A DNA stretch of 64,000 bases from a virus. Location of the stretch: the IMG/VR virus record IMGVR_UViG_3300021957_004906, positions 124,001-188,000 of that record. One strand, 5' to 3'. Shown one piece after another: positions 7,913-25,321 of this stretch (position 1 is its first letter; every line of letters begins with the position of its first letter). The notes below the pieces were generated by a model. That model had not been told where the DNA came from. It worked only from the letters and a program-made list of their open reading frames with translations, and searched no databases. The position numbers and the translations under genes are program-made.

Positions 7913-8123
7913 TTTAAAATTAAGACAGTTGCAACAGGAAAGTGCCAGGGCACTAAGTACTATGCAAGCCACAAACAATAACATTTATAAATTTAATAAA
8001 CTAGCACATCATGATAGTCAAAAATGGTATCGTGCAGTTATAGAATGGTATATAGAAGAGTACGGTGATTTGCCCAGCAAGACTGGACCTGGCAAGGATG
8101 TAAAACTAATATACAATGTATAA
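7899..8123 (+). CDS. small conserved hypothetical protein
   Basis: A 74-residue protein starting at TTG 7899 and overlapping both neighbours (14 bases upstream, 8 downstream), which supports translational coupling. It has an N-terminal helix (LRQLQQESARAL) and a conserved-looking W-Y-x-x-V-I-E-W-Y-x-x-E-Y-G-D-L-P core. No function recognised; it may assist the radical SAM enzyme encoded next. Confidence 0.5.
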   Translation: MDISNLKLRQLQQESARALSTMQATNNNIYKFNKLAHHDSQKWYRAVIEWYIEEYGDLPSKTGPGKDVKLIYNV

Positions 8124-9198
8124 CTATGAAGATATAAAACAAGTTCATTTAGAAGTTACACAACGTTGCCAAGCAGCATGTCCTATGTGCGACCGTAATG
8201 AAAATGGCGGAGTAGACAATCGCCATATAGATAATAGTGAACTAAGTTTAGCAGACTGCGAACGTATCTTCCCTCCAGAGTTTATTGCACAATTAAAAAC
8301 AATGTACATGTGTGGTAACTTGGGCGATCCTATTATTGCTCGGGATACACTAGAGATATTTCGGTACTTCAGAAAACACAACCCTACAATGTGGCTAAGT
8401 ATGAATACTAATGCAGGGGCAAAAAATGAAGAATGGTGGAGACAGCTGGCTGAAGTTTTTGGAAGGATGGGTACCGTCATATTTTCGGTGGACGGTTTGC
8501 GTGACACTAATCATTTATATCGCCAAGGAGTTGTATGGGATAATGTAGAACGCAATATGAAGGCTTTTATCTTAGCAGGTGGTAGAGCTCGTTGGGACTT
8601 TATCATTTTCGGACACAACGAACATCAAGTTGATGAAGCAGAAGCACTTGCAGCTAAATGGGGATGTGAAAAGTTTCAGCGTAAGAAAAGCGGCAGATTC
8701 TTTACAGCAAGTAACAAAGGCAAAGATAAACATCAAGCACAAAATCGCAAAGGCCAAGAAACACAACTACTACAAAAACCTCAAAAGTTAGATAATCAAA
8801 ATTTAGCATTGTTAAAACAAAAAGAGATTGAAAAAACATACGGAAGTATGAGCGACTATTACAATAAGTGTAGTATAAATTGCAAAGCCATAGATAAAAA
8901 AGAAATCTTTATTACAGCAGAAGGACTATTGATGCCTTGCTGTTGGACTGCTGGACGCATGTACAAATGGTGGCACAAAGATTATCGTGTAGAACAAATA
9001 TGGGAACATATCGAACGTGCAGGCGGCAAATTAGCTATCGATGCTACATTACACGGATTAGAAAGTGTATTTAACAGCGGTATATTAGAAAGCATAACTG
9101 AGAGTTGGCAAAAAGACAGTGTTGCCAATGGTAAACTTGGCGTGTGTTCTATGAAGTGTGGCAGTGAGTTTGATCCGTTTGCTGCTCAATTTGAGTAG
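8116..9198 (+). CDS. radical SAM protein A, C-terminal SPASM-like cysteines
   Basis: EVTQRCQAACPMCDRN at residues 14-29 gives the CxxxCxxC cluster that cleaves SAM. The MCGNLGDPI strand and TIFSVDG-like segment fit the TIM barrel. A long polar insert (residues about 190-250) follows, and then C-terminal cysteines CSINC, CCW and CSMKC suited to one or two auxiliary Fe-S clusters, as in SPASM/twitch enzymes that modify peptides or small molecules. It shares W-W-x-x-L-A and HNEHQ with proteins C and I of this cluster, so the three form one subfamily. Its stop region overlaps the opposite-strand protein B gene by 50 bases. Confidence 0.85.
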   Translation: MYNYEDIKQVHLEVTQRCQAACPMCDRNENGGVDNRHIDNSELSLADCERIFPPEFIAQLKTMYMCGNLGDPIIARDTLEIFRYFRKHNPTMWLSMNTNAGAKNEEWWRQLAEVFGRMGTVIFSVDGLRDTNHLYRQGVVWDNVERNMKAFILAGGRARWDFIIFGHNEHQVDEAEALAAKWGCEKFQRKKSGRFFTASNKGKDKHQAQNRKGQETQLLQKPQKLDNQNLALLKQKEIEKTYGSMSDYYNKCSINCKAIDKKEIFITAEGLLMPCCWTAGRMYKWWHKDYRVEQIWEHIERAGGKLAIDATLHGLESVFNSGILESITESWQKDSVANGKLGVCSMKCGSEFDPFAAQFE

Positions 9199-10501
9199 CC
9201 AACTCATACAATGGTTGTAACCGTGGAACACTTGTACACAAATCAGTGCCACGAGCAATATCCAATGCATCTATTCCTCGACGCCATGCAAGTAAATTTT
9301 TATAATCTACACTGTATTGTTCTAAGTCTTGATTTAACCAATTGATCCAACGCTGTATATTTTCTCGCCAACTGTAAGGATGAATTTCAGATTTTTGCAA
9401 ACGTTTGAGTGCTTGTAACCCTTGTTGCTGTAGTTCAGGTACATAGTTTATCATACAAGGCTGGGTTGTTGTGTTTGTCCATATAGTTAAGCTACCGTCT
9501 GGTACATTATAAGGCGGATCGTAGTGCGTACCTGGGCAATTGTCAAGATACCAAGTACCAATTTCGTCAATGTTGGGTGCGTTAAACATATTCCAACAAG
9601 TTTGTATTGTAAGTTCTATACCTGATTCTCTTACTTTACGATATGTTTCCAACCATTTTTTATCTTTGTATCCGTAACGAGTATATTCTCCTACGCTGCC
9701 AAACCCATCATTACTCATAGTAACTTTACAGTTTCGCCCCCAATGTACAAGATACTCTTCAATAATATCAACACCTTTATAACTTTTTGTAATACTACCA
9801 TTGGTATGACTCCACACTTGTATAGTTTTGTGCAATCCACGCTTGAGAAGTTCTTCTAATAGCTCATATGTTTCTTGTTGCATCCACGGCTCGCCGCCAT
9901 TTAAGTGTATGCTACGAATAGTGTCTGCGTGTTTTAGAACATAATCTACTTTGTGCTTTCCCATGTTATCCCAATTGGTCATGTGAGGATAATATTGATC
10001 TGCTGAATTATCATTTAGAATAGCAAATTCTTTTCTATATTTGTTGTTAATTGTACTGCTAAGATCAGGGCCGCACCCCAAACAAGCAAAATTACACTTT
10101 GATGTCCACAACAAGTCTAGCCATTCAGGCTTTTGTACGTGCAGTGTTCCGTCTGCATCTGTATTAGCAACAAGTTCACGCAAGTTATCCATATCACTCA
10201 TAGCATTGCCGTGTACCCTGTTTAAACTAGGCTCTCCGTTTACTTCTTGTATCCAACATGCTTCACACTGTGAATGTCTTTCGCCACGCAAAAAAGCTGC
10301 CCTAACGTCTTTAGCATGATCACTGTTGTACATTTCTTCATAGGTTTGCTTGTTACTCCAGCCAATTGGTTGTCTGGTTTTACAGCAAGTACTAACCAAA
10401 CCCTCTGGTCCTTCGTGAAAACTGTTCCAAGGACTTGCACAAAAATTTGGCAGATTGAATTCTTTGATGACATCACTGTGACGTTTATGCTTGTTTCTCA
10501 T
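9149..10501 (-). CDS. radical SAM protein B, N-terminal cysteine motif (twitch-type)
   Basis: The N-terminus carries FCASPWNSFHEGPEG...STCC and later CEACW, a SPASM-like cysteine set placed ahead of the barrel. The radical SAM core follows with TSKCNFACLGCGPDLSS (CxxxCxxC) and HLNGGEPWM, the GGE motif that binds the SAM amino group. The tail is long (450 residues total). The ATG at 10501 is preferred over 10516 because it lies five bases after GATAAATA. It is divergent from protein C and convergent with protein A. The substrate is unknown; relatives act on peptides. Confidence 0.85.
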   Translation of the reverse strand: MRNKHKRHSDVIKEFNLPNFCASPWNSFHEGPEGLVSTCCKTRQPIGWSNKQTYEEMYNSDHAKDVRAAFLRGERHSQCEACWIQEVNGEPSLNRVHGNAMSDMDNLRELVANTDADGTLHVQKPEWLDLLWTSKCNFACLGCGPDLSSTINNKYRKEFAILNDNSADQYYPHMTNWDNMGKHKVDYVLKHADTIRSIHLNGGEPWMQQETYELLEELLKRGLHKTIQVWSHTNGSITKSYKGVDIIEEYLVHWGRNCKVTMSNDGFGSVGEYTRYGYKDKKWLETYRKVRESGIELTIQTCWNMFNAPNIDEIGTWYLDNCPGTHYDPPYNVPDGSLTIWTNTTTQPCMINYVPELQQQGLQALKRLQKSEIHPYSWRENIQRWINWLNQDLEQYSVDYKNLLAWRRGIDALDIARGTDLCTSVPRLQPLYELATQIEQQTDQTHCHTS

Positions 10502-10506
10502 ACTAG

Positions 10507-10521
10507 TATTTATCATAAATA
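10507..10521. promoter_or_regulatory. divergent late-promoter boxes (TATTTATCATAAATA)
   Basis: A 15-base inverted repeat serves both directions: GATAAATA on the minus strand, five bases before the protein B ATG at 10501, and CATAAATA on the plus strand, four bases before the protein C ATG at 10526. No Shine-Dalgarno fits in either gap. Confidence 0.6.
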
Positions 10522-10525
10522 ATGT

Positions 10526-11560
10526 ATGTACTTAATTAATATAGATACAATTGAACGAATTGAATTAGAAATAAGCAGCGATTGTAATGCCGCATGTCCA
10601 GGATGTGCTAGAACACAAAACTTAGATATACTAAAACCACAAAACTTAACACTACAACAAATTAAAACTTGGTTTCCTGATCGCAGACACATTGCAGGTA
10701 AACGTTTTAAGTTTTGTGGAGTACTGGGAGATCCAATTGTTAATCCTGAATGTTTAGAAATTACACAACATTTAGTTGATCACGGAGCGCACATACAGTA
10801 CAGTACCAATGGTGGACGCAACAGTGCAGACTGGTGGGCACGATTAGCACAGTTAGGAGTTGATGTACACTTCTGTGTTGACGGCACTGAAACCAATCAT
10901 ATATATCGTGTAAACACCAATTATAAAATTATTAAACGTAATATGCAAGCATACGCCGATGCCGGTGGCGAAGCAACTTGGATATACATTGTGTTTGATC
11001 ATAATGAACACGAACTAGAACAAGCTCGTGCATTAGCGAAGAGCATGAATTTTAAGTTTGCTACTCGTACTGGAATGCGTAATAGTTATCACAACTGGGT
11101 TGCACAAATTGGCAAAAAGAATAATAAAGTAGAAAAGACTATAACAACCACTGGCGCAAAAGAACACAGTAAAGTAAAAGAAGTAAAACAATTAGATAAG
11201 TTTATACAACAAGAAAACAAAAGTCAAGAAGAAATCGAATCAATTTTGGACAGTATAAGTTGCAAATTTTATCACGATAAAGAAATATTTGTAGCCGCCA
11301 ACAGTACACTATGGCCTTGTTGTTTTTTATGGGACAGTAGTTTTAAAAATAAAGAAGGTATCAATGACAAGTATAGTGGGTTTACGCAAGGTTGGAATAA
11401 TTTAAACACACACTCAATTGATCAAATACTTGCAACTGATTACTATGCACAAACACTTAGCGATAGTTTTGATCCAAGACATAATTTGCACATAAGTCGT
11501 TGTATACGGACTTGTGCCAAAAATCGTGCATATCAAAACGAAATCAAATATGCAGAATAA
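10526..11560 (+). CDS. radical SAM protein C, C-terminal SPASM-like cysteines
   Basis: EISSDCNAACPGCART gives the CxxxCxxC cluster near residue 20. FCGVLGDPIVNPE corresponds to the glycine-rich strand that replaces a classical GGE, and HFCVDGT and FDHNEHELEQA match proteins A and I. After a lysine- and glutamate-rich insert (about 190-240) come SCKFYHDKEIF, LWPCCF and CIRTC, likely ligands of an auxiliary cluster. It has 344 residues. The gene begins four bases after a CATAAATA box and converges with protein D, overlapping by 17 bases. No substrate is suggested by the sequence alone. Confidence 0.85.
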   Translation: MYLINIDTIERIELEISSDCNAACPGCARTQNLDILKPQNLTLQQIKTWFPDRRHIAGKRFKFCGVLGDPIVNPECLEITQHLVDHGAHIQYSTNGGRNSADWWARLAQLGVDVHFCVDGTETNHIYRVNTNYKIIKRNMQAYADAGGEATWIYIVFDHNEHELEQARALAKSMNFKFATRTGMRNSYHNWVAQIGKKNNKVEKTITTTGAKEHSKVKEVKQLDKFIQQENKSQEEIESILDSISCKFYHDKEIFVAANSTLWPCCFLWDSSFKNKEGINDKYSGFTQGWNNLNTHSIDQILATDYYAQTLSDSFDPRHNLHISRCIRTCAKNRAYQNEIKYAE

Positions 11561-12812
11561 AATCAGCTACTTGTGGCTGTAACATTTCATCATAGTTTTG
11601 TTTACGTACAATATCAAGTGTTAGTGTGTCTTGTTTTAGCCTAGCTCTACGTTCCGTTAGTACATCAGGATCATGTGTTTGATTCAAACACCATTCTAAA
11701 TACTTTATAGTTTTTTGTACACCACCCTGTACATATTCATCACACTCTACAGCACACATAGTTTGATATACTATGTCCAATAGTTCTGTACTTGCCCACT
11801 TAACATCTAAACAACTATCTACTGGATGTGGATCAGGGATACACTTCCATGTAATCTTGTGTTCACTATACCAATTGTGTTGTATAATCCAATCAATAAG
11901 GTTACGTATGTTTAACATATTATATGTGGTTAACACACTACAAATATGTATCTCAGTACTGTCTGGATTTTGTGTTTCACAAAGTTTGTTTATATTATTT
12001 TCCAGCTTTCGCCAGTTAAAGGGATATCGTATGTATTCATATGTACTACGGGTACCGTCTATGCTTAGTGTAAAGTGGCGTTTACCGAACTTCTTCATAC
12101 TGTCTAAAAATAAATGATTAAATTTAGTAGCATTGGTTGTTAAATGTATTTTTACATTTTCTGGATAGTTTAAATTATTAACGATACTCCAAAATGTTTT
12201 ACTAACAGTTGGCTCTCCGCCAGTAAACTTTAGCTCACGTATTTCGTCTCCTATATCAATTATCTCTTTTTGATATTCTGTATTAGGTCCAAAAAATACT
12301 TGTGTTCCACTGGGATCAGCTTGACTTTCTGTCTGCTTTATGTTATAATATTCAGGTAACGGTAAGTCAAGTTCTAGTATCTGATTGTAGTCTTTACGTA
12401 GACTATTGCTAACACTGGGCGCACACATTCTACACTGGAGGTTACAACTTTCGTCTATCATAGTATCTAACTTCATTAACTTTTTAGTAGCTGGAGCTGT
12501 ACTTTGTTTTAGCGGTTCAATAGTAGTAATACGTGGGCTGTGTCCTGTTCGACTTTCCAGCCGCCAACAATACTCACATGCTGGGTTGCGTATGCCACTC
12601 AGTAAGTCTAAACGTAGTTGATCAAACTGTGGGCTAGCAAAAATATCTGCTAAACTAGCACCAGCGTCTATTAGAGGTTTTACTCCCATTGGATCGTCAG
12701 TATTGTCCGACTTCATGTTACAACAAGGTGTTACACGATGTGGACGACCATCAACCCAGCTTTTAGGAGCAATGCTTTCAAACGGAAAGCTACAATAAGT
12801 AGGATGTTCCAT
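11544..12812 (-). CDS. radical SAM protein D, N-terminal cysteine motif
   Basis: It starts MEHPTYCSFPFESIAPK, with a following TPCCNM and CEYCW, i.e. the same N-terminal cysteine set as proteins B, E, F and G. The radical SAM site is DESCNLQCRMCAPSVS and the GGE motif is KFTGGEPTVSK. SIDGTRSTYEYIRYP is a segment shared across the N-motif group. The ATG at 12812 is chosen because it is five bases after GATAAATA; a longer frame upstream would run through the divergent promoter and into gene E. Length 422 residues. The core gene of a divergent pair with E. Confidence 0.85.
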   Translation of the reverse strand: MEHPTYCSFPFESIAPKSWVDGRPHRVTPCCNMKSDNTDDPMGVKPLIDAGASLADIFASPQFDQLRLDLLSGIRNPACEYCWRLESRTGHSPRITTIEPLKQSTAPATKKLMKLDTMIDESCNLQCRMCAPSVSNSLRKDYNQILELDLPLPEYYNIKQTESQADPSGTQVFFGPNTEYQKEIIDIGDEIRELKFTGGEPTVSKTFWSIVNNLNYPENVKIHLTTNATKFNHLFLDSMKKFGKRHFTLSIDGTRSTYEYIRYPFNWRKLENNINKLCETQNPDSTEIHICSVLTTYNMLNIRNLIDWIIQHNWYSEHKITWKCIPDPHPVDSCLDVKWASTELLDIVYQTMCAVECDEYVQGGVQKTIKYLEWCLNQTHDPDVLTERRARLKQDTLTLDIVRKQNYDEMLQPQVADFILHI

Positions 12813-12855: not shown

Positions 12856-14217
12856 ATGCACAAGAACTTTTGTATTCTTCCTTTTATACATTTAGCAACC
12901 ACAACAGAAGGCACCTGTCGCTTGTGTTGCAAAGTAAGCAAGCACGATGTTATACTAGATGACAATGGTGTGCCTTATAACGTTAACACTCACAGCATTG
13001 ACGAGATATGGAACAGTAAACATTATCGCGAACTGAGACACAAAGTATGGGAACAAGATCAACAATTGCCAGAGTGTGCGACATGTTGGCGTGAAGAAGA
13101 GATTTTCAGTAGTGACTGGAGCAAACATAAAAAAGAAGAATTGCCCAGTAAGCGGCGCAAAGAAAATCAAAAATGGCTACACAAGCCTCACACAAAAATC
13201 AATGATCAGTGGGAAGACATCATTGATAACCCACGCATACGCTACTATGATATCAGACTGAGTAACTTGTGTAACTTAAAATGTCGTATGTGCTGGCCTC
13301 ACTTTAGCAGTCAGATAGTTCGAGAGCAAAAACAATTTGCATCTATGGGACTTCCTACACACTACAAGCACTATGATGTTGCCGAGTGGGATACTGCTAA
13401 ACTGTGGAGTAGTATCAATGATGGCATTGCAGAGATTGAAGAGATTACATTTGTAGGAGGGGAACCTACACTACACGATGAAATGTATGAACTTGTTGAT
13501 AAACTTGTGCAAAATAACTTGGCTAAAAACATTAGATTAAAACTAACCAGTAATCTCACTAATATACAACAGAGATTTTTAGAGTTGATGCACAAGTTTG
13601 ACAGTGTAGAAATAAACGGCAGTATAGATGGCATCGACGATGTAAACAATTATATTAGATATCCCAGTGACTGGGTAACAATTGAACATAACATTGATAA
13701 ATTACTTGCTATTAAAAATGTACAAATAAATTTAACTCCAGTAATACAAATATATAACATAATGCACATTGATCGCCTAACACGGTGGTATACAGATAAA
13801 TGGATCCAACAACAGCTGGGTAGTAGATTTACACTGAGTTATGATCTATTGTATGATCCCGATTATTTGTCAGCAAAACAATTAAATAAATCTGCTAAGT
13901 ACACATGGTACACAGACGTATATCAGCCAGTGACAAAATATTTAAACAGTATAATAGACACCGTGGATACACAAACACAAACTGTACAAGATCATTGGAG
14001 AGAGTTAGATAAACTTAAAAAAAGAATTGTTAATATTGCACTTTACATTGAAGTATTGGGCTTTGATAAACAAAACAATTCGTGGCGTTACTGGTACAAT
14101 GACACAGCTCTGCCCGAACTTGCTGTAAAATTACACAAGTACACAAAACAACTAGACCAACACAGAGGACAAAATATTACAGATATTGTTCCAAACTTTT
14201 ATGAGATAATACAATGA
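12856..14217 (+). CDS. radical SAM protein E, N-terminal cysteine motif
   Basis: MHKNFCILPFIHLATTTEG with CRLCC and, later, CATCW gives the N-terminal cysteine set; LSNLCNLKCRMCWPHFSS is the CxxxCxxC site and TFVGGEPTLHDE the GGE motif. NGSIDGIDDVNNYIRYP is shared with D and F. The protein is 453 residues with a lysine-rich, tryptophan-rich tail. The start is fixed by a late-type promoter box five bases upstream and lacks a Shine-Dalgarno. It heads a long plus-strand operon that runs to 24.3 kb with mostly overlapping genes. Confidence 0.87.
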   Translation: MHKNFCILPFIHLATTTEGTCRLCCKVSKHDVILDDNGVPYNVNTHSIDEIWNSKHYRELRHKVWEQDQQLPECATCWREEEIFSSDWSKHKKEELPSKRRKENQKWLHKPHTKINDQWEDIIDNPRIRYYDIRLSNLCNLKCRMCWPHFSSQIVREQKQFASMGLPTHYKHYDVAEWDTAKLWSSINDGIAEIEEITFVGGEPTLHDEMYELVDKLVQNNLAKNIRLKLTSNLTNIQQRFLELMHKFDSVEINGSIDGIDDVNNYIRYPSDWVTIEHNIDKLLAIKNVQINLTPVIQIYNIMHIDRLTRWYTDKWIQQQLGSRFTLSYDLLYDPDYLSAKQLNKSAKYTWYTDVYQPVTKYLNSIIDTVDTQTQTVQDHWRELDKLKKRIVNIALYIEVLGFDKQNNSWRYWYNDTALPELAVKLHKYTKQLDQHRGQNITDIVPNFYEIIQ

Positions 14218-15617
14218 CAAAAATACCAAGTGACACATTTTGTATACTGCCCTGGGTGCATCTTAGTACAAGGCCAGATGGCAGTATGCGAGTATGTTGT
14301 ACTGCAAATGCTAGTAGTGTTGGCGCCACTAATGATAAAGAACACGGGGGTATGGTTGGAGTACTTAAAGACGATGAAGGCAAACCCAACAATTTAAACA
14401 TAACTGATTTTCAAAGTTCGTGGAACAGTACATACATGAAGAACGTTCGCAAGCAAATGCTCAACGGCGAACAACCTCCTAGTTGTGTAAAATGTTACAA
14501 GGAAGAAGCAGCAGGGCATCGTAGTAAACGTCAGTGGGAGACCGCATATTGGATGCAACGCACAGATCTAGAAAGTCTCATACAAAATACACAAGAGAAC
14601 GGAGAAGTGCCTCCTAACTTGGCATACATTGATTTACGCTTTGGCACAAAGTGTCAACTAGCTTGTGTTATGTGTAGTCCACACGATTCATCAGGTTGGA
14701 TTAAAGACTGGAAAGCAATAAATCCTCAAATACAAAATGAAAGTTTGAAAAGCAATACACAATGGCGTGACAAAGGCAGTATTAATGGAAGCAGTTACAA
14801 CTGGCATAAACATAATCCAGTATTCTGGGAACAGTTTTACGAACAGATTCCAAATATGCAACAGATATATTTTGCTGGCGGTGAGAGTTTAATTATTGAT
14901 GAACACTATGAGATACTTGAAGAATGTATTAAGCAAGGGCATGCAAAGAATTTAGAACTACGTTATAACTCAAATGGAGTTGAATGGAGGGAGGATTTAT
15001 TTGACTTGTGGAAAGAATTTAAACTGGTAAGATTCCATTATAGTGTAGATAGTATACACGAAATGAATGATTATATTCGATATCCTAGTAAATGGAAACG
15101 CACAGAAGAAGTATTTCATATACTTGATAAAGAAACAAGTAATAATGTTGAAATTACAGTTGCATGTGCAGTGCAAGCTCTAAACATCTATTATCTACCA
15201 GACTTTATCCGTTGGAAACTAGAGCAACGGTTTAATAAAATAAACATGTGGCCGTTTGGCGCAGGTGGTATAAACTATCACTTTGTATATCATCCAGCAC
15301 ACTTAAATGTTAAAGTACTACCAGCCTGGTTTAAAGCTGAGTGTCGTAAAAAATACAAGGAGTTTTATCCATGGTGGGAAGAAAACTGGGAATTAAGTAT
15401 ACCCAGTTGGCACAAGGGCAAAGTTACTTACGAAGAATGGCGAACCGCTGACTACGGTATTAAACGACTTGAAGGTATGATACAGTTTATGGAAAGTGAA
15501 GACTGGAGTGTACGCTTGCCTGAAATGAAAGAATTTTTAAGTTTATGTGATCGTCAACGCAACAACAGTTTCAGTGCAACATTCCCAGAAATGAAAGATA
15601 TATTCAATGACATTTAA
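14214..15617 (+). CDS. radical SAM protein F, N-terminal cysteine motif
   Basis: It overlaps E by four bases (ATGA). DTFCILPWVHLSTRPDGS followed by RVCC and CVKCY is the N-terminal cysteine set, while FGTKCQLACVMCSPHDSS is the SAM-cleaving CxxxCxxC site and YFAGGESLIIDE a GGE variant. SVDSIHEMNDYIRYP marks the group. Length is 467 residues, the longest of the set, with a tryptophan-rich region near 340-400. Paralogous to B, D, E, G rather than duplicated recently: identity outside the motifs looks low, so each probably acts on its own substrate (inference). Confidence 0.87.
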   Translation: MTKIPSDTFCILPWVHLSTRPDGSMRVCCTANASSVGATNDKEHGGMVGVLKDDEGKPNNLNITDFQSSWNSTYMKNVRKQMLNGEQPPSCVKCYKEEAAGHRSKRQWETAYWMQRTDLESLIQNTQENGEVPPNLAYIDLRFGTKCQLACVMCSPHDSSGWIKDWKAINPQIQNESLKSNTQWRDKGSINGSSYNWHKHNPVFWEQFYEQIPNMQQIYFAGGESLIIDEHYEILEECIKQGHAKNLELRYNSNGVEWREDLFDLWKEFKLVRFHYSVDSIHEMNDYIRYPSKWKRTEEVFHILDKETSNNVEITVACAVQALNIYYLPDFIRWKLEQRFNKINMWPFGAGGINYHFVYHPAHLNVKVLPAWFKAECRKKYKEFYPWWEENWELSIPSWHKGKVTYEEWRTADYGIKRLEGMIQFMESEDWSVRLPEMKEFLSLCDRQRNNSFSATFPEMKDIFNDI

Positions 15618-16470
15618 TATTAAATTAAGCAATAGCAGTTACGAGAAGTTTGGTGTAGACCCAAGTGTACTTCATGATGTAAATGGATTACTTTATCCAT
15701 ATGATCCTGCTTGGGCTAATATAGGTGTAAATCTAAGTGGAGGAGCAGACAGTGCAGTTGGTACTGCAACACTGTGTAAACTTATACTAGAACACGGAAA
15801 CAATACAGCAATCACAGTGCTTACCAATGTGAGAGTATGGAACAATAGACCATGGGCAGCCCCTATTAGTGTAGAAGTATACAATAAATTACGTGAAATG
15901 TTTCCTGATGTGATCATGCAAAGAGTACAAAATTTTATTCCGCCTGAGATAGAAGATGGTGCTATAGGAGTTATTGAACAAATCGGCACCACTGGTGACA
16001 GAATATGTACAAGAAGTTTTAATCAATTTGCTGTACATACCTATAACTTAGATGCAGTGTACAACTTTATAACCAATAATCCATCTGACTCACAACTAAC
16101 ACACAGAGAAAAACCATGGGATAGAAGTTGGGATCAGTTAAAATTGGAATTTGCCACATACTGCCCGCAGTATCAGCGGCAGAATGGTTTTGTAGGATGT
16201 CATCCCTGGAAACTAGTAACCAAAGACTTTATTATTAATGAATACATACGCAATAACTGGATGGACTTATTCAACACCACCAGAAGTTGCGAAGGTGACA
16301 AAAACTTGTTTAAATTTATGGAGTCAGAACCATTCAAAGACTATACTGAATATGAACATGGTATTACACCATTGGTGACCTGTAATGATATCACCGACAA
16401 TTCACAAGGGGGTTGTTTTTGGTGTGCAGAAAGAGCATGGGCATTGGGAGTAGTTGGTGCATCCAAGTAA
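15607..16470 (+). CDS. QueC-like PP-loop ATP pyrophosphatase
   Basis: NLSGGADSAVG near residue 43 is the PP-loop (SGGxDS) used to adenylate a carboxylate or carbonyl. Near the C-terminus TRSCEGD, LVTCND and GCFWCAERAWALG provide four cysteines arranged much like the zinc site of QueC, which makes preQ0 from CDG. Length 287 exceeds QueC's usual 220-240. It could be the QueC step for the QueD/QueE/FolE genes 33-47 kb away, or an ATP-dependent amidating or thiolating enzyme serving the radical SAM cluster in which it lies. The cysteine spacing differs from canonical QueC, so I hold the gene name back. It overlaps F by 11 bases. Confidence 0.65.
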   Translation: MTFNIKLSNSSYEKFGVDPSVLHDVNGLLYPYDPAWANIGVNLSGGADSAVGTATLCKLILEHGNNTAITVLTNVRVWNNRPWAAPISVEVYNKLREMFPDVIMQRVQNFIPPEIEDGAIGVIEQIGTTGDRICTRSFNQFAVHTYNLDAVYNFITNNPSDSQLTHREKPWDRSWDQLKLEFATYCPQYQRQNGFVGCHPWKLVTKDFIINEYIRNNWMDLFNTTRSCEGDKNLFKFMESEPFKDYTEYEHGITPLVTCNDITDNSQGGCFWCAERAWALGVVGASK

Positions 16471-17770: not shown

Positions 17771-18972
17771 TGCTAGAATTAGAACAAAAAGATTTCACAG
17801 CTATTAATTTACTGGATGGTGACAACTTAACTGTTACTTGGGATGTAGGTAGACGCTGTAACTATGATTGTACATATTGTCCCCCACACCGTCATGATAA
17901 CTTTAGTAAACATGCTGACTTAGCTACACTGCAAAAGACTGGAGAGTTTGTATTTGATTACGCACAACTAATGATGCCACACAAAAAGAATAAGCGTATT
18001 AATTTAAACTTTACTGGTGGAGAGCCCACAAATAATCCAAACTTTTTAGCATTTGGTCAGTGGTTACGTGATACATACAATGAGAAATATGCTGACGACT
18101 TTAAAATGACCCTTACTATTACCAGTAACGGCGCATTTGGCAAGAAGATGGCAGATAATGTTATTGCTAATTATGGATTTATGACTATTAGTTACCATGC
18201 AGAAGCACATGCCAATCTTAAAAAGCAAGTAATAGATAATATATATTATTTTACTGAGCATAAATTTCCAATTAAGATTAATGTAATGTTTCACGCAGAG
18301 TACTGGGACGAGTGTAAAGACTTATGTATACAGTTTGAGCGTGATGGTATTGGATATGTGCCACGAATGATTGGCGAGCATGAGGATAGTAAAAACTCAT
18401 ATGCACACCGCTACACAGATGAGCAACTACAGTGGATGAAAGACTACTGGGCAAATAAAAACGCCGCACTAAACGACAAGCCTAAGCCTGCTCCAGTAAA
18501 GAAACCACCAGCGGGTGTAATGATGATGGCAACTGAGAAACCCCCAGAGAAAAAGTTTGCTAGAGAACTAGGACGTCCATGTTGTGGTAGTCGTACAATG
18601 GAAACATGTGGTAGTGATGGTTGCTGGAGTAAAAGTACATTCTTGGACTTTGCTAAATTCCGTAACTGGCAGTGTAGTGTTAACTGGTTCTTCCTACACA
18701 TTGAACAACAAACAGATACTATATGGCATCATCAGACATGTCAAGCCAAGTTTGACGGTACTCGTGGACCGATTGGTACTATTACAGACTGTGATAAAAT
18801 TATAGACGAACTACGTACTAACTTGGAAAATAAAACAATGCCTGTTATTACGTGTCCACTGGGACCAGGTAAGCATTGTGGATGTGGTATGTGTACACCC
18901 AAAGCAACTGAGCTTGATGCATTAATGGAAATTATGCCACAACATATAGAAGACATGAGTATATTTGGATGA
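17770..18972 (+). CDS. radical SAM protein H with C-terminal cysteine-rich domain
   Basis: WDVGRRCNYDCTYCPPHRH provides the CxxxCxxC site and NFTGGEPTNNPNF the GGE motif at a standard place, with no N-terminal cysteine set. A proline- and lysine-rich linker (residues about 236-265) leads to a C-terminal domain with CCGSRTMETC, CQAKF, CPLGPGKHCGCGMC, enough for one or two auxiliary clusters. It has 400 residues. Together with protein J it forms a third architecture of the cluster. Start ATG overlaps the stop of G by one base. Substrate unknown. Confidence 0.85.
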   Translation: MLELEQKDFTAINLLDGDNLTVTWDVGRRCNYDCTYCPPHRHDNFSKHADLATLQKTGEFVFDYAQLMMPHKKNKRINLNFTGGEPTNNPNFLAFGQWLRDTYNEKYADDFKMTLTITSNGAFGKKMADNVIANYGFMTISYHAEAHANLKKQVIDNIYYFTEHKFPIKINVMFHAEYWDECKDLCIQFERDGIGYVPRMIGEHEDSKNSYAHRYTDEQLQWMKDYWANKNAALNDKPKPAPVKKPPAGVMMMATEKPPEKKFARELGRPCCGSRTMETCGSDGCWSKSTFLDFAKFRNWQCSVNWFFLHIEQQTDTIWHHQTCQAKFDGTRGPIGTITDCDKIIDELRTNLENKTMPVITCPLGPGKHCGCGMCTPKATELDALMEIMPQHIEDMSIFG

Positions 18973-19514
18973 TAGTAACAGGCAATTCAAGACAAGGACT
19001 AGCACACAGTATACACAAACTGTATCCTAATGCAAAGTTTGTGAGTAGAAGCACAGGTGTGAACCTTACTGACAACAGTGATATGGAGTGGTTTGCACAA
19101 GAAGCTGCTAAACACAGTCAAATCATTATCAATAGCGCACTATGGCGCTTCCATCAAACTGTGCTACTGGATCTAGTATACAAGGCGTGTAAAACAGCCA
19201 ACAATGACGCACATATTGTATGTGTAGGCAGTACAACAGACAGAACTAGTAAAGGCACAAGTTGGTTGTACAATGCAGAGAAACGTGCGCTAGCTGATTA
19301 CTGTAATAGTCTGGGACTAATAGGAGTTTGGCACAGTGGTCCTAAGATAACACTGATTAGTTTTGGAACACTCGACAATAATCAACATAAGCATCCTGAC
19401 AGGGTATGTATGCACACAGATGTAGCTGCTGAATATATCAAATGGGTATTGGATCAGCCACAAGGATACTGTGTAAACAATTTAAGTATTGATCCCATGC
19501 AGGAGAGACAATGA
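18969..19514 (+). CDS. short-chain dehydrogenase/reductase-like protein
   Basis: MIVTGNSRQGLAHSIHKL is a compact Rossmann nucleotide-binding start (TGxSxGxG-like), IIINSALW takes the place of the N-A-G strand, and CVGSTTDRTSKG followed by YNAEKRALADY matches the SDR catalytic S...YxxxK pattern with E before K. At 181 residues it is shorter than the usual 250. It overlaps both neighbours by four bases (ATGA). An NAD(P)-dependent oxidoreduction of the radical SAM product is a fair guess. Confidence 0.65.
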   Translation: MIVTGNSRQGLAHSIHKLYPNAKFVSRSTGVNLTDNSDMEWFAQEAAKHSQIIINSALWRFHQTVLLDLVYKACKTANNDAHIVCVGSTTDRTSKGTSWLYNAEKRALADYCNSLGLIGVWHSGPKITLISFGTLDNNQHKHPDRVCMHTDVAAEYIKWVLDQPQGYCVNNLSIDPMQERQ

Positions 19515-20470
19515 TGTGGAGCATGGATACTATAGAATGGCTAGACATAGAGCTTACTAGTTATTGTAACATAGAATGCAAAGGTTGTTTTAGAATTATT
19601 AGCAAACAAGCTGATAAAATACTCAATAAACACTACATTACCATAGATACTATACGTGAACGATTTGTGCGTGGACAATTTCCTAGTATTAAAATTATTA
19701 ATTTTTGCGGCAGTGTGGACGAACCTACAACACACCCACAGTTTTTTGATATTATACGTCACTTTGCTGACTGGAATGCTCACATAAACATTGCTACTAA
19801 TGGCAGTTTGCGTACTACAAAATGGTGGACTGAACTAGCTGGTATATTACCGCCTAGTCATGCTGTTACTTGGGGTATTGACGGCAGTGATGAACTAAGT
19901 GAAGTATATAGACAAGGCAGTAATTTTACAAAAGTAGAACAAAACTATCGTGCGTTCAATGCCGCTGGTGGTAGAAGTAACTGGCAGTTTATTGTGTTTG
20001 AACACAATGAACATCAGTTAGAAGAAGCAAAAGCCAAAGCAACTACTGAAGGATTTAAAAGTTTTAAAACTATTATCAGTCACAGAAAAGACACAACTGG
20101 CGGAGTCAAGTCAGCCAAGACTGAAAAGATTGACAATGCGCCAGAAATACCGTATATTAGTTGTAAGTACGGTAATCAAAAACGTATATTCATAAATCAT
20201 ATGGGCAATGTTATTCCTTGTTGTCATTTAAATAGCAAGATGATGGAATATAGTGTAACAGGTGAAGTGAAAGATCAATTTGAACAACTGTTGTTGGACA
20301 ACAATTATATTGATACAATTAATTTACAAAATGTTAGCATAAAAGATGCAATACATAGTACTGTATGGCAAAATATTCAACAGAGTTGGGATAGCGACAA
20401 TCCTGTTCCACGATGTATGCAAGTATGCAAACAAATGAAACAAGATAAATTTATCAAGGAAGAATTATGA
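19511..20470 (+). CDS. radical SAM protein I, C-terminal SPASM-like cysteines
   Basis: ELTSYCNIECKGCFRI is the CxxxCxxC site; NFCGSVDEPTTHPQF corresponds to the GGE region in its GDP/DEP variant; TWGIDGSD and FEHNEHQLEEAKAKA match proteins A and C. C-terminal SCKYGNQKRIF, VIPCCHL and CMQVC are the auxiliary cysteines. Length is 319. It belongs with A and C in one subfamily but sits 8 kb away, between an SDR and the nucleosidase gene, overlapping each by four bases. Confidence 0.85.
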   Translation: MMWSMDTIEWLDIELTSYCNIECKGCFRIISKQADKILNKHYITIDTIRERFVRGQFPSIKIINFCGSVDEPTTHPQFFDIIRHFADWNAHINIATNGSLRTTKWWTELAGILPPSHAVTWGIDGSDELSEVYRQGSNFTKVEQNYRAFNAAGGRSNWQFIVFEHNEHQLEEAKAKATTEGFKSFKTIISHRKDTTGGVKSAKTEKIDNAPEIPYISCKYGNQKRIFINHMGNVIPCCHLNSKMMEYSVTGEVKDQFEQLLLDNNYIDTINLQNVSIKDAIHSTVWQNIQQSWDSDNPVPRCMQVCKQMKQDKFIKEEL

Positions 20471-21021
20471 ATATATTATTAGTTGTAGCATTGGAAGAAG
20501 AACTTCCAAATCCTCCTAAAAATACCACAGTAGTTTACACAGGTGTTGGTAAAGTACAAGCTGCAACACGACTGGCACAAGCACTATGTAAAAGCACTAA
20601 GCCAAATCTAATTGTCAATTACGGCACAGCAGGTGGGCTTAATCCTATGGTCAAAGGCATGCGTGAGATAGGTACATTTGTACAGCGTGATATGATGGCA
20701 ATGCCTATGGTTGATAGGGGTGTAGTACCGTTTAGCGATCCTATACTCAGTGATATTGGTACAGCGAGTCCAGTTATGCAATTAAGGTGTGGTACTGGTG
20801 ATAGTTTTGTTATGGGTCCAGACAAATGGTTTGTGGAAGCAGACATTGACTGTGTAGACATGGAAGGTTATGCACTGGCATATGTTGCACAAGAATATAA
20901 TATACCTTTTAGAAGTTTTAAATACATTAGTGATATGGCAGATGAAAATGCTGCCCAAGAATGGTCAAAAAATGTCGCAAATGGCGCAGAACGATTTTTG
21001 GAGTTATTTGCAAAATTATGA
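20467..21021 (+). CDS. mtn: 5'-methylthioadenosine/S-adenosylhomocysteine nucleosidase-like
   Basis: This is a purine-nucleoside phosphorylase-fold protein of 184 residues. VNYGTAGGLNP, CGTGDSFV and VDMEGYALAYVA are the family's structural, purine-site and ribose-site (ME) motifs, and KYISDMADENA carries the catalytic aspartate. MTAN enzymes hydrolyse SAH, methylthioadenosine and 5'-deoxyadenosine (family knowledge). 5'-deoxyadenosine is the by-product that inhibits radical SAM enzymes, so its place between two radical SAM genes, overlapping both by four bases, makes a clean-up role very likely. The N-terminal third is shortened against the 230-residue bacterial form. Confidence 0.82.
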   Translation: MNILLVVALEEELPNPPKNTTVVYTGVGKVQAATRLAQALCKSTKPNLIVNYGTAGGLNPMVKGMREIGTFVQRDMMAMPMVDRGVVPFSDPILSDIGTASPVMQLRCGTGDSFVMGPDKWFVEADIDCVDMEGYALAYVAQEYNIPFRSFKYISDMADENAAQEWSKNVANGAERFLELFAKL

Positions 21022-22130
21022 CAGAAGACTTAAAATGGAGTGAATATGATTTTACTAAAATACCCTTTGACGATATCGTCAGCGTTGGGCAAAGGACTTT
21101 GCTTTATCGCGACTTGTTTACTGTTAGTTGGCTGCTCGGAAGATTTTGCAACTACAAATGCTCGTACTGTTGGCCTTACGCCCGTTCCGACCGTAAAGAC
21201 CACCGACCTACTGAGCTCTGCTTGCATACAGTGGATGAAATCAAATCCCAAGCAAGAGCTAACGGCTTCAATAGTTTCCACTTCTCCCTGTCTGGGGGAG
21301 AACCTACCTTTCATCCCGGCTACCTTGACATCCTACAACACCTTGCCAGCGATATATTAAACACAAATTATACTAGTGTTCATATGACAACTAATATGTC
21401 ACGCAATATGAAGTGGCATGAGGATTATGTAGAACGTGTAAAACCCTTCCATAGAGCTAGTATAACCGCTAGTTTACACACAGAACATTTAAATACTACT
21501 GAGAAGTTACAAGACTTTGCAGATAAACTAATCTTGTGTCAGGAGCATGATGTTCAAGTTACAATCAATATGGTTATGGTTCCAAACTGGTTTGAGAGGG
21601 ACTGGGAAAACGCATTGTTCTTCCACGAGCAAGGAATCAACGTTACCCTCAAGCCACAATCAGATCCAACGGCGTCTAGAGTCGTGGACGGTTACACAGA
21701 TGAAATGCTACAGCGATTGTGGAACGGTATGCCTCAAATGGCGTATACTGAATCGAAACGCAAATGGGCGGATCGTCCACGGCCAAGTTTCGAATTGCCG
21801 CCTTACGCAATAGGTGAGAATGACAAGAGTGTGCCATGGCACATGCAAGTAGAGTTTACAGACTCTACAGGCAAGAAATGGTACATGGACCAAGCAGAAC
21901 GGTTTAATGCTTTCAACTTCAATGAGTTTAAGGGATGGAGTTGTAATGCAGGATACAGTGGAATCATTATCAGAGAGCCTGACGGAAGTATCAAACGCAG
22001 TTATAGTTGTGCAGACGTCCCTCTTGGTAATATTGAAACAGGATTTAAATTATTTGATAAGCCTAGAGTTTGTATTAGTGACAATTGTGTTAGTAGTGCT
22101 GATAGTAAGATTCCAAAACGAAAGGCATAA
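21018..22130 (+). CDS. radical SAM protein J
   Basis: GRFCNYKCSYCWPYARS gives the CxxxCxxC site and FSLSGGEPTFHPG the GGE motif; the C-terminal part has CNAGYSG, YSCAD and CISDNC. It shares the design of protein H (both open with a short strand, then the barrel). The ATG at 21018 overlaps the nucleosidase stop (ATGA) and is preferred to an earlier start in that gene. Base composition is unusual: roughly 45-53% G+C in consecutive 60-base steps of 21061-21300, well above its neighbours, and again around 21600-21720, suggesting recent acquisition of parts of the gene. Confidence 0.85.
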   Translation: MTEDLKWSEYDFTKIPFDDIVSVGQRTLLYRDLFTVSWLLGRFCNYKCSYCWPYARSDRKDHRPTELCLHTVDEIKSQARANGFNSFHFSLSGGEPTFHPGYLDILQHLASDILNTNYTSVHMTTNMSRNMKWHEDYVERVKPFHRASITASLHTEHLNTTEKLQDFADKLILCQEHDVQVTINMVMVPNWFERDWENALFFHEQGINVTLKPQSDPTASRVVDGYTDEMLQRLWNGMPQMAYTESKRKWADRPRPSFELPPYAIGENDKSVPWHMQVEFTDSTGKKWYMDQAERFNAFNFNEFKGWSCNAGYSGIIIREPDGSIKRSYSCADVPLGNIETGFKLFDKPRVCISDNCVSSADSKIPKRKA

Positions 22131-22133: not shown

Positions 22134-22157
22134 TCAATATAGTGGAGGTGTAATTAA

Positions 22158-22436: not shown

Positions 22437-22445
22437 GAATACGCC

Positions 22446-23066
22446 ATGTTAGACATACACACAAATATACATAAAAGCGTAATTAAAAGTCAACATTGTC
22501 AACGTAACTGGGACTTATCACAACCTATACCTCAAACTGATATTGATCTAATGATTCATGCAGCAACGCAATGCCCTAGCAAACAAAATAATGCATTTTA
22601 TGGTTTGAGTGTTGTACAAGATAGAAACATCATAGAACAGATACACAATTACACTTTTGGATTCAGAATGTTCAATGAAGAACAGGAAATAATTACAAAC
22701 AGCCAAGTACTAGCAAATATTTTATTTGTGTTTACAAGTGCTGAGTCAAGTTCTAGAGTGCTTGATAAAAATGAACTAGATGAAAACAGTGACCAGACAA
22801 TAATCCAAAGAGATGCCAATATTGCATTAGGTATCGCAAGTGGATACTTAAATCTTACTAGCACAATGCTAGGATATAGTACAGGGTGCTGTCAATGCTT
22901 AGATCCAGAACCAATAAAAGAGATACTACAAACAGACCGCAAGATATTATTGCTTATGGGGGTGGGTCATAAAAATCCTAACTTGAATAGACGCATACAT
23001 CATGCTGACAACGATAAAATTTTCTATTCTATTCCAAAAGAACCCATAAAAATAAAACATTACTGA
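22446..23066 (+). CDS. nitroreductase-family FMN oxidoreductase
   Basis: HAATQCPSKQNNAFYGL near residue 37 is the FMN-phosphate (PSxxN) motif of nitroreductases, and ANIALGIASGYLNLTSTM with the following GYSTGCCQC matches the conserved dimer-interface helix. The C-terminal LLMGVGHKNPN is the usual GxG strand. It is 206 residues, a normal length. Members reduce nitro groups, flavins or quinones, or oxidise azolines in peptide natural products. In this setting it could act on a radical SAM product. One base overlaps the next gene. Confidence 0.75.
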   Translation: MLDIHTNIHKSVIKSQHCQRNWDLSQPIPQTDIDLMIHAATQCPSKQNNAFYGLSVVQDRNIIEQIHNYTFGFRMFNEEQEIITNSQVLANILFVFTSAESSSRVLDKNELDENSDQTIIQRDANIALGIASGYLNLTSTMLGYSTGCCQCLDPEPIKEILQTDRKILLLMGVGHKNPNLNRRIHHADNDKIFYSIPKEPIKIKHY

Positions 23067-23620
23067 TGCATTTTAAACAGTTAAAAGATCTTCCTAGTAT
23101 AGATGTTCATCAAGAACTAGAACAGATGTTGCACAACAACGTTTTAAGTTGGCAACACATGAATCAAATCTGTATCAATGCTACACCCGACAATGACAGT
23201 CCTTATGCAGGAGTAGGTAGTTTGGATTTAGATTGGGCCCGTGCCAGTGACACAGAAAATGGAGTGCATGTACCTAAACGTGAAACTGCACTACGTGAAC
23301 AAGATTTTACTAAACTGTGCAGTGTGTTTGCAGGCACACAGTTTGAACAATTATATACTGCTCTTACTAATGATTATACTGTAGGCAGAGTAAGACTGAT
23401 GCGTACAAATCCTAGATATGCAATGAGCTGGCATTATGACTACAACAACAGAATACACTATCCTATCAAAACACAGTTTGGGTGCTACATGGTAATTGAA
23501 AAAGAAGTAGAGCATTTAGAAAAAAACAAATGGTATTGGACTGAAACTAAAAAATGCTATCATACAGCATTTAATGGCAGTAACGAAGATCGCATACACA
23601 TGGTTGCTTGTCTGCTATGA
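23066..23620 (+). CDS. 2-oxoglutarate/Fe(II) oxygenase, aspartyl-hydroxylase-like
   Basis: MSWHYDYNNRIHYPIKT holds the HxD metal ligands, GCYMVIEKEVEHLEKNKWYW the core jelly-roll strands, and KCYHTAFNGSNEDRIHMV the distal histidine and the arginine that binds 2-oxoglutarate. Length 184. Such proteins hydroxylate Asp/Asn or small molecules (family knowledge). It is the first of two oxygenases at the end of the radical SAM operon. Confidence 0.75.
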   Translation: MHFKQLKDLPSIDVHQELEQMLHNNVLSWQHMNQICINATPDNDSPYAGVGSLDLDWARASDTENGVHVPKRETALREQDFTKLCSVFAGTQFEQLYTALTNDYTVGRVRLMRTNPRYAMSWHYDYNNRIHYPIKTQFGCYMVIEKEVEHLEKNKWYWTETKKCYHTAFNGSNEDRIHMVACLL

Positions 23621-24297
23621 TAGAACTAGACAAATATCTACAATTGCACACTTCTCCTGTTGTAGCGACAGACATAGTAATCGATCCCGATAAGTTTGAA
23701 AGTCTTATGCAACAGCACCAATATGCATTTCGCAGTTGGGGTGAAAAGAAAAAACACTTTCCTAGATACGGATTACCATTGGTAAATCAAAACGGCAGTA
23801 TGTACAACAATCCAGAGCCTGTGTGTTATCCATTAGATGAATGGCTAGAACCATTAGAAGAAGAAGACTGGGTGTTTGACAGAGACTTTACACAAAAAAC
23901 TCCAGTGTTTGAACACAGTGTATTCGATCCTCTTAAATGTTTTGATGATTATTGGTGTCGTAGTTGTATACTGAGATGGGATAGTGAATCATTCTTTTAT
24001 CCACATAGCGATACATGGTTTCCTAGCCCAATACTGAGACTATGGGGAACTACAGATCCAGATAATGTAAAGTTTCAATTTGATAGAGAATTTCGCAGAG
24101 CTCCTACACCAGGAACAGTTAGTAGTATGGAACCTGACATGGTAGATTGGCATGGAGATATTGAACCAGGCAGGATGTATATTGTAGACACTAGCTTAAT
24201 ACACACAGCTCGCAGTCAAGGCGATTCAAGTACATATCAATTCTTTTTATCTGTACATAGTGATGCATTTGATGTACTCAAACAGCATTGCTTGTAA
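23617..24297 (+). CDS. 2-oxoglutarate oxygenase-like protein
   Basis: FFYPHSDTWFPSPILRLWG carries an HxD pair, and GRMYIVDTSLIHTARS has the distal histidine with YQFFLSVHSD forming the last strand. The N-terminal 90 residues are specific to this protein. ATG at 23617 overlaps the previous stop (ATGA), which decides the start over an upstream one. The end overlaps the opposite-strand radical SAM gene K by 20 bases. Substrate unknown. Confidence 0.65.
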   Translation: MIELDKYLQLHTSPVVATDIVIDPDKFESLMQQHQYAFRSWGEKKKHFPRYGLPLVNQNGSMYNNPEPVCYPLDEWLEPLEEEDWVFDRDFTQKTPVFEHSVFDPLKCFDDYWCRSCILRWDSESFFYPHSDTWFPSPILRLWGTTDPDNVKFQFDREFRRAPTPGTVSSMEPDMVDWHGDIEPGRMYIVDTSLIHTARSQGDSSTYQFFLSVHSDAFDVLKQHCL

Positions 24298-25321
24298 TTT
24301 CTTTTCGTACTTTTTCCAACCAAATTAAACAGTCATCTAAATTCATAATGACATCTGCATACTGATTGAACAGTTTGCGCCAGTTGTTTACCAAAGATTG
24401 TTTTGTGTTGTCGCAGTATTGTAAACTTAATGGACCACTATGATCTACACTGCTTCCTGTGATATAAAGTTGTATATTGTATTCACGTGCAAGTTCACCC
24501 ACCCAGTACATATAGTCTGAGAAATGATCCACAGTAAGTGTGCTGAGTGTTGGACTCAATCCTATAAACTCTAGTTGTGTTCTTGCAAAGTAATTACGTA
24601 CATTAGTTTCAAATCTTGGCCAACTTAATCCTTCTCTAACAGTTTCACTAACGTTGCCAGTGCTTTCATTACTAATTACAACAATAACACGCCAGTTGTT
24701 AGGAAATCGATCTAATAGCTCAAAAAATTTCTGTTGTTGTTTTGGTAGGGTATTTGCATTTGTCATAATAGAAATGAATAAGTCTTGCTTATATAATTTT
24801 TGCAACATAAGTTCTGCAAACTTTACAAAGTTTTTGCTGTATGTAACTTCACCGCCAAGAAAACTTAGTGTATAAGGATCTTTAAGTGTTTGCAACCAAT
24901 CTAAAAACACAGCGTAATCTTGGTCATCAGCTTGTAGTACTGATTGTTTAATTCCTAGTTTTTGTGCAATTTTATGACTACTACGAGCATCACAATACTG
25001 ACATGTCATATCACACAAGTTGTCTAGTTTCACTTCTACAAATTTTATAGGTTCAATCTTGCCTGTGTTGTAAACATCTCTGTAGGCTCCGCCTGACTTT
25101 CTATAACTGCTCCAGCAGTGTTTGCAATTTGTATGTTCTATGCCTGCTTGCAATGCTTCACGGCGTTCTAATATACCAGGACTTGCATTGAAAAATTCAG
25201 TATCAAGTTGCTCGGGCATATATTCATTCACACTTTTACAACAATGTCTAACACTTCGTCGAGCAAAGTCTATGTTTACATCACTCCATGCCTTACTACA
25301 AAAAGTGCTACTTAGATGCAT
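24278..25321 (-). CDS. radical SAM protein K, N-terminal cysteine motif
   Basis: STFCSKAWSDVNI, VRHCCKS and CKHCW are the N-terminal cysteine set in a shortened form. The SAM-cleaving site is LDNLCDMTCQYCDARSS, and SFLGGEVTYSKNF is a GGE motif with V for P. The protein has 347 residues. It is the last radical SAM gene of the array, on the minus strand, and is downstream of and overlapping the TauD-like gene by 10 bases, so here it belongs to the minus-strand oxygenase operon rather than to genes E-J. Confidence 0.85.
   Translation of the reverse strand: MHLSSTFCSKAWSDVNIDFARRSVRHCCKSVNEYMPEQLDTEFFNASPGILERREALQAGIEHTNCKHCWSSYRKSGGAYRDVYNTGKIEPIKFVEVKLDNLCDMTCQYCDARSSHKIAQKLGIKQSVLQADDQDYAVFLDWLQTLKDPYTLSFLGGEVTYSKNFVKFAELMLQKLYKQDLFISIMTNANTLPKQQQKFFELLDRFPNNWRVIVVISNESTGNVSETVREGLSWPRFETNVRNYFARTQLEFIGLSPTLSTLTVDHFSDYMYWVGELAREYNIQLYITGSSVDHSGPLSLQYCDNTKQSLVNNWRKLFNQYADVIMNLDDCLIWLEKVRKEITSNAV

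Follow-up and report, generated by a model that had tools for sequence, protein, structure and literature searches.

We analysed a 64,000-nucleotide stretch of viral DNA, here called the window, which corresponds to positions 124001-188000 of the 197,947-base IMG/VR record IMGVR_UViG_3300021957_004906 and carries a dense array of genes for radical SAM (S-adenosylmethionine) enzymes. The record stems from an uncultured large aquatic phage, whose baseplate wedge protein is 35-40% identical to those of the jumbo phages Salicola SCTP-2, Atu_ph07 and PA5oct. An earlier note on this DNA had placed eleven radical SAM genes, A to K, between positions 8116 and 25321. All eleven are present there with a CxxxCxxC motif, and all match radical SAM models; only the gene starts of D and J had to be moved (to near 12812 and to 21018, respectively), while the remaining coordinates held. 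Overall, the motif occurs in 11 of the 17 genes of at least 100 amino acids in this interval, compared to an expectation of 0.11 (mean of 2000 composition-preserving shuffles; maximum 2), and in 3 of 126 genes in the rest of the record. The array was understated, since it extends beyond the window. The domain PF04055 was found at 20 places of the record (104.4-149.0 kb), including all eleven window genes; B and K taken singly fall under the Pfam cut-off, but both show the motif as well as GGE and match a family. One additional gene (record 102075-103817) was recognised by its motif and by the model NF033640. The whole record thus holds 21 radical SAM genes between 102 and 149 kb, 11 in the window and 10 to its left, arranged in two blocks with sugar-nucleotide genes in between. 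The cluster cysteines are intact in all of them.

These proteins show three architectures, a division made in the earlier note and borne out by our cysteine and motif alignments. In 14 proteins (B, D-G, K and eight encoded upstream), four invariant N-terminal cysteines (C10, C28, C91 and C94 in F) precede the barrel, together with CxxxCxxC, GGE and a C-terminal Arg. This is the layout of the family NF033640 (N_Twi_rSAM, here N-twitch), which covers one of the three architectures, but not arrays, partners or function. Its cut-off of 170 bits was passed by B, D, E, F and G (213-424 bits) and by the eight upstream genes. K reached 133.8 bits, with the four N-terminal cysteines and GGE present, and A, H, I and J (30-51 bits) as well as C (26.9 bits) fell below. 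A, C, I and one upstream protein have CxxxCxxC near residue 18 (18-20 in A, C and I), H-N-E/Q-H and C-terminal cysteines. H and J consist of a standard barrel with tail cysteines, which are invariant in H. A further upstream gene encodes a B12-binding, KedN5-like radical SAM protein of 625 amino acids. The SPASM domain PF13186 (gathering score 21.5 bits) was reached by B alone (25.3 bits, at the N-terminus) and was unreported for the other members tested. We checked the fold on F, for which the AlphaFold model (pLDDT 84.8, pTM 0.85) matched only radical SAM structures at E<=0.001. The TM scores were low, and therefore F has no close relative among solved structures. PHROGs yielded no family for the glycosyltransferase (GT), the methyltransferase (MT) or the PP-loop gene described below and matched the radical SAM genes only in part. 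The alignment of the 14 N-twitch proteins was too divergent to serve as a query for the collection scan. A fused reading frame of the upstream N-twitch genes n2 and n3 was suspected and rejected, because ordinary stops are present.

We then compared the array with related loci. IMG/VR scans returned close relatives of F in at least 240 contigs, of A in at least 366 and of n2 in at least 563. Several radical SAM genes are present in each of the 27 large relatives searched, and nine or more of these relatives have 15-19. Among 20 large relatives, which were read in part, so that the real frequencies may be higher, A and F are each present in 17, J and GT in 16 and MT in 15, compared to three to seven for each of C, H, I, the PP-loop gene, the short-chain dehydrogenase/reductase (SDR) gene and the nitroreductase gene. 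The order of the frequent genes is nearly invariant in IMG/VR contigs: A stands before F on the same strand at 141 of 142 loci, F before J at all 61, and GT adjoins MT at 122 of 130 (sets fetched via A and F and from large records; 62/62 and 50/52 in two counts). Since these loci were fetched via A, F or n2, they are biased toward neighbours, but not toward neighbour order. Every span from A to J contains 5-12 genes with a radical SAM motif. Therefore, A, F and J, which represent three different radical SAM architectures, form together with GT and MT a conserved core in the order GT-MT-A-F-J, and C, H, I and the PP-loop, SDR and nitroreductase genes are exchangeable extras, gained and lost between phages. 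J is conserved at 74% mean column identity across phages and bacteria. A second conserved set, gt1-gt2-GTx-n2-n3-n5-n8, lies beside baseplate genes. In one relative phage (locus L013 3990-15227), a 3745-amino-acid open reading frame directly follows the baseplate wedge gene. Relatives of A, F, G, H, I and J also occur on a phage-like 80-kb contig binned as Acidimicrobiaceae (L269-L270), which we counted as phage; by eye, it additionally encodes two B12-dependent radical SAM proteins and two tryptophan-halogenase-like flavoproteins.

Genes of both conserved sets recur in the chromosomes of predatory bacteria. A genome scan yielded 12 loci, mostly from Bdellovibrionota, with 5-26 NF033640 matches per genome, often in arrays. 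In the tree, the clades n1/n2, n3, n5, n7, n8, E and F each mix phage and bacterial members (SH-aLRT 85-100), and therefore these subfamilies predate the exchange. Bdellovibrionota chromosomes likewise contain A, J, GT and MT. Bacterial orthologs of F were found at 55-61%, and J in 6 of 129 genomes of one bacterial class at 61-69% identity. On long bacterial contigs (up to 1.6 Mb), F, J and GT lie in one place, and in many cases A, MT and an aminotransferase-like protein accompany them. In the Bacteriovoracia metagenome-assembled genome (MAG) G093, an F-GT-J block next to pheST runs on into a phage tail-protein homologue, which is followed by gt1, gt2, GTx and N-twitch genes in phage order (L355 2388-9378). 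With the caveat that these sequences are MAGs, we read this arrangement as a direct trace of exchange between phage and bacterium.

Taken together, the array is best read as an actual multi-step modification pathway. The idea of a separate biosynthetic or modification system finds support in the conserved gene order, the distinct and old orthologous groups, the purifying selection (dN/dS 0.03-0.21 wherever synonymous change is unsaturated) and the sharing of several members together with bacteria. A fixed system is formed by only part of the array, namely by A, F and J with GT and MT and, separately, by n2-n3-n5-n8; B, D, E, G and K, in contrast, look accessory or lineage-specific. The enzymes that had been proposed to be interleaved with the array are supported to varying degrees, namely the nucleosidase (PF01048), the nitroreductase (PF00881), the PP-loop motif and one of the two inner 2-oxoglutarate (2OG) oxygenase genes (PF05118), with the SDR recognised by eye only.

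What does this pathway modify? The predicted structure of GT (AlphaFold pLDDT 88.3) retrieved almost exclusively glycosyltransferases among its best 50 PDB matches, the remainder being the nucleotidyltransferase HddC. A PDB search with the GT profile gave noise only, and the GT-A fold was settled by the structure search. Between the two radical SAM blocks, the phage encodes UDPG_MGDP_dh and Ribul_P_3_epim proteins, a SIS isomerase, an APS-kinase-like protein and a carbamoyltransferase. Glycosyltransferases together with sugar-nucleotide enzymes, as expected for a surface glycan of the O-antigen type, were found in both phage and bacterial loci. The bacterial array G033 contains three GT1 genes, a DegT aminotransferase, a carbamoyltransferase and an ABC-2 exporter, locus G035 contains three GT2 genes and a flavin amine oxidase-like gene, and in G043 the F-J-GT genes lie a few kb from CapD/WecB/glycosyltransferase-like genes (by eye). 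At a bacterial array in locus L254, separate NTP-transferase (707-1846, PF12804) and kinase-like genes adjoin. No flippase, polymerase or exporter was recognised among the phage proteins scanned, the ABC-2 exporter of G033 being the counterpart found. We favour a glycan substrate because of the constant partners GT and MT, the frequent carbamoyltransferase, the sugar genes between the blocks, the bacterial loci of polysaccharide type and the precedent of the pelagimyophages discussed below. It also fits that the nearest solved relative of A, though remote, is the sugar-nucleoside enzyme BlsE. With a probability of roughly 0.5, the array supplies the radical chemistry of a glycan pathway that is encoded by the phage and decorates the surface of the infected cell or the virion. 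In such a pathway, sugar-nucleotide enzymes would prepare a sugar, GT-A enzymes would transfer it, and A, F and J would act on the sugar or glycan in consecutive radical reactions (e.g. decarboxylation, dehydration/deoxygenation, epimerisation or cross-linking). The MT, the carbamoyltransferase, 2OG oxygenases and the aminotransferase would finish the product, and the accessory radical SAM enzymes would vary its structure from phage to phage. The place of this product would be either the tail or, during infection, the surface of the host, where it might, for instance, keep other phages out.

Several observations weigh against a glycan. The UDP-sugar dehydrogenase is present in only 5 of 20 relatives, and no RPE, SIS or NTK gene occurs in the stretches of relatives that were compared. 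Some bacterial N-twitch arrays adjoin housekeeping genes (obgE/rplU; ATP synthase), not glycan genes. The structures nearest to F are, at a remote level, the peptide maturases SkfB, CteB and SuiB, and the PDB sequence nearest to J is, also remotely, viperin (E=1e-3). Oxygenases of the Asp/Asn-hydroxylase type and the conserved small protein s74, encoded just upstream of A, fit a protein substrate equally well.

Modification of a ribosomal substrate by the radical SAM enzymes, oxygenases and glycosyltransferases, as by the SPASM/twitch maturases of ribosomally synthesized and post-translationally modified peptide (RiPP) pathways, is the main alternative, with s74 or a tail protein as the substrate. 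Mycofactocin biosynthesis likewise pairs a radical SAM enzyme with a glycosyltransferase. s74 is conserved in 135 viral loci (85 distinct sequences), the sactipeptide/SkfB maturases are the nearest structures of F, and a PqqD-like protein (PqqD/S74, locus L257) lies near the G033 array. In addition, PF05118 hydroxylases occur in the phage and in G035, and in G093 the tail-protein homologue travels with the gt1-gt2-GTx-N-twitch genes. But s74 is conserved along its whole length, without a pattern of leader and variable core, and it is missing from several phages with A-F-J. A counterpart of s74 was sought in the bacterial loci and none was found, nor did any small-ORF family occur in three or more bacterial genomes. 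No peptide recognition element (PqqD/RRE) was detected among the window proteins scanned, and noncoding space in the A..J segments averages only 3%. We therefore consider a peptide or protein substrate somewhat unlikely; s74 may be a substrate, a scaffold or a regulator. Instead of a surface polymer, the product could be a small metabolite of nucleoside, sugar or lipid type, either diffusible or linked to a lipid, and tailored by the PP-loop enzyme, the aminotransferase, the B12-dependent radical SAM enzyme, the desaturase and TauD. This would agree with the KedN5-type gene and the TauD, desaturase and aminotransferase genes nearby, with the resemblance of A to the blasticidin enzyme BlsE, and with the bacterial locus G111, which joins homologues of the B12-dependent enzyme, a TauD-like protein and the aminotransferase to F-J-GT. 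However, no scaffold gene of the nonribosomal peptide synthetase or polyketide synthase type was seen, and it is GT and MT that accompany the array most constantly, while the tailoring extras vary among phages. Such a metabolite is thus improbable.

The array could also be a loose collection of auxiliary metabolic genes without a common product, such as support of the host's iron-sulfur (Fe-S) metabolism. Support of this kind was suggested for a marine genome in which 12 such genes were reported (PMC5332604), and the reading would agree with the A-type carrier or IscU in some relatives and with the gain and loss of accessory members. It is very improbable, because the GT-MT-A-F-J order is fixed in over 140 loci, deep orthologous clades are common with bacteria, and Fe-S assembly genes are absent from most relatives and from the present record. 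Finally, a role in the hypermodification of DNA or nucleotides, or a viperin-related, antiviral-like one, has next to no chance of being correct. J is weakly similar to viperin, and several members match the viperin, MoaA and QueE models weakly, with all such scores far under the cut-offs (at most 44 bits vs 180 for the viperin model NF038283). Moreover, no DNA-base-modification enzyme was seen among the genes scanned, and the partners are GT and MT.

Two support functions were considered. The nucleosidase carries PF01048 with the catalytic Glu and Asp positions and aligns with the methylthioadenosine/S-adenosylhomocysteine (MTA/SAH) nucleosidase PDB 4pr3 over the active-site motifs VDME and ISD. 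The radical SAM by-product 5'-deoxyadenosine inhibits radical SAM enzymes (PMC8102628), and the phage nucleosidase could plausibly act as a helper that clears it. As a core part it was rejected, since PF01048 is present in 4 of 24 records and inside the array only in G000 and G001. A general role in Fe-S supply was also rejected, as an A-type carrier was found in only 4 of 17 records and IscU in 1 of 17, and neither in the present one. Ferredoxin (PF00111) was found in 0 of 24 records.

Related systems are known in part. The T4-like marine virus genome TARA_ERS488813_N000010 carries 12 radical SAM genes (PMC5332604). It resembles the present record as a large marine T4-like genome with many such genes and has an Fe-S carrier. 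Its genes are interpreted there as Fe-S metabolism, with subfamilies, order and partners not given in the accessible part of that source. The host-recognition island of pelagimyophages provides a similar setting (PMC7029224): it is variable, lies close to tail/baseplate genes and holds radical SAM cassettes next to glycosyltransferase and lipopolysaccharide (LPS) genes, but the cassettes are merely mentioned, whereas the present record has 21 genes, a three-enzyme core and a baseplate closest to jumbo phages. That island spans from VrlC to the neck gene gp14; here, only adjacency to baseplate-wedge and tail-like genes was seen. With the RiPP radical SAM/SPASM enzymes (SkfB, CteB, mycofactocin), the array shares auxiliary-cluster enzymes and a small conserved ORF next to A, but their equivalog cut-offs were missed by far, no recognition element was among the window proteins scanned, and the bacterial homologues lack a precursor. 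The closest solved sequence to A is that of BlsE, a cytosylglucuronate decarboxylase and thus a sugar-nucleoside enzyme (E=4.6e-10), with a remote similarity limited to the barrel; the NCBIfam BlsE model was unreported for A, C and I. The isolated Vibrio phage K566 (OZ196521, 255 kb) has five N-twitch genes in one region (L354 4346-21719), but no relatives of GT, MT, J, H or the PP-loop gene in it. A gene annotated as PagP-like (lipid A) lies near them, and this phage is a tractable model. Marine phages with many radical SAM genes and the N-twitch family are thus already known. The earlier note had raised the possibility of an already named phage system; for the A-F-J/GT/MT core, its fixed order and its sharing with predatory bacteria, we found no description in the searchable open-access literature.

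Table 1. Genes of the array and its surroundings (window coordinates), and small or membrane proteins beside bacterial loci (coordinates within the named loci).
Feature	Coordinates	Strand	Evidence and distribution
Probable NTP-transferase/phosphotransferase fusion (putative sugar activation)	391..1791	+	by eye; no Pfam match
SIS-domain sugar-phosphate isomerase-like	3487..4020	+	PF01380 E=3e-12
APS-kinase-like small kinase	4354..4806	+	PF01583 E=3.4e-7
Carbamoyltransferase, N-terminal domain	4954..5931	+	PF02543 E=3.5e-25; 12/20 relatives
GT, GT-A fold glycosyltransferase, core	6103..6840	+	AlphaFold and fold search; 16/20 relatives
MT, putative class I SAM methyltransferase, core	6833..7912	+	by eye; no Pfam/PHROG match; 15/20 relatives
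s74, 74-aa conserved ORF	7899..8123	+	upstream of A; no Pfam match; candidate substrate or scaffold
A, radical SAM, C-terminal auxiliary cysteines, HNEH, core	8116..9198	+	PF04055 37.9 bits; 17/20 relatives
B, N-twitch radical SAM, accessory	9149..10516	-	NF033640 224 bits; dN/dS 0.08
C, A-type radical SAM, accessory	10526..11560	+	motif and cysteine alignment
D, N-twitch radical SAM, lineage-specific	11544..12812	-	NF033640 213 bits; ortholog in 0/20 relatives
E, N-twitch radical SAM	12856..14217	+	NF033640 312 bits; clade with bacterial members, SH-aLRT 90
F, N-twitch radical SAM, core	14214..15617	+	NF033640 424 bits; 17/20 relatives; predicted fold
PP-loop ATP-dependent enzyme (SGGADS), conserved cysteines, accessory	15607..16470	+	SGGADS nearly invariant over 16 homologues
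G, N-twitch radical SAM, accessory	16454..17770	+	NF033640 243 bits
H, radical SAM, cysteine-rich tail, accessory yet frequent	17770..18972	+	PF04055 29.9 bits; 28/33 A..J spans (one locus set)
SDR-like protein	18969..19514	+	YxxxK by eye; no Pfam match; 5/20 relatives
I, A-type radical SAM, accessory	19511..20470	+	motif and cysteine alignment
MTA/SAH-type nucleosidase	20467..21021	+	PF01048 E=5e-22; PDB 4pr3 E=1.4e-11
J, radical SAM, cysteine tail, core, best conserved	21018..22130	+	PF04055 59.1 bits
Nitroreductase-family flavoprotein	22446..23066	+	PF00881 E=5e-6
Asp/Arg-hydroxylase-type 2OG oxygenase	23066..23620	+	PF05118
Possible 2OG oxygenase (call of the earlier note)	23608..24297	+	no Pfam match; relatives in 2/20 phages
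K, short N-twitch-like radical SAM	24278..25321	-	NF033640 133.8 bits
TauD-type 2OG oxygenase, just outside the array interval	25312..26289	-	PF02668 E=7e-21
AT, aminotransferase-like pyridoxal-phosphate protein	30217..30999	-	PF00155 weak; same family in 4 bacterial genomes
HTTM-like proteins	L267 5914-7464, L268 12263-13144, L347 8693-9682, L349 10027-10845
Apparent twin-arginine small proteins	L346 1237-1635 and 8430-9017, L349 9135-9542, L268 834-1307

Beyond the array, the minus-strand oxygenase block of the window contains fatty-acid-desaturase-like genes at 28416-29168 (PF00487) and 30941-31522 (by eye), and a phage-encoded SET-domain protein (PF00856, 27929-28441) lies beside 2OG-type genes. 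Beside the bacterial radical SAM loci, HTTM-like membrane proteins were seen repeatedly; by eye they resemble gamma-carboxylases, and some are accompanied by a small protein. Bacterial radical SAM and oxygenase genes also have recurrent neighbours that encode small proteins with apparent twin-arginine signal peptides, which are possible exported substrates.

Radical SAM enzymes need oxygen-sensitive clusters and much SAM, and 21 of them in one virus therefore suggest that the gain is large. J, s74 and n2 gave zero matches in 50,697 deposited phage records, and F only weak ones. Since the core genes are nevertheless abundant in IMG/VR, this chemistry has escaped culture-based work. We tentatively propose that the core cassette, moving between large aquatic phages and Bdellovibrionota, modifies a glycan or glycoprotein in several radical steps of a previously undescribed kind, while exchange of the accessory radical SAM enzymes diversifies the product. 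The homologues in predatory bacteria provide a cellular system in which this product could be found, and phage K566 provides an isolate for the N-twitch part. What has so far been seen as many auxiliary Fe-S genes would thereby become a testable pathway with named core enzymes.

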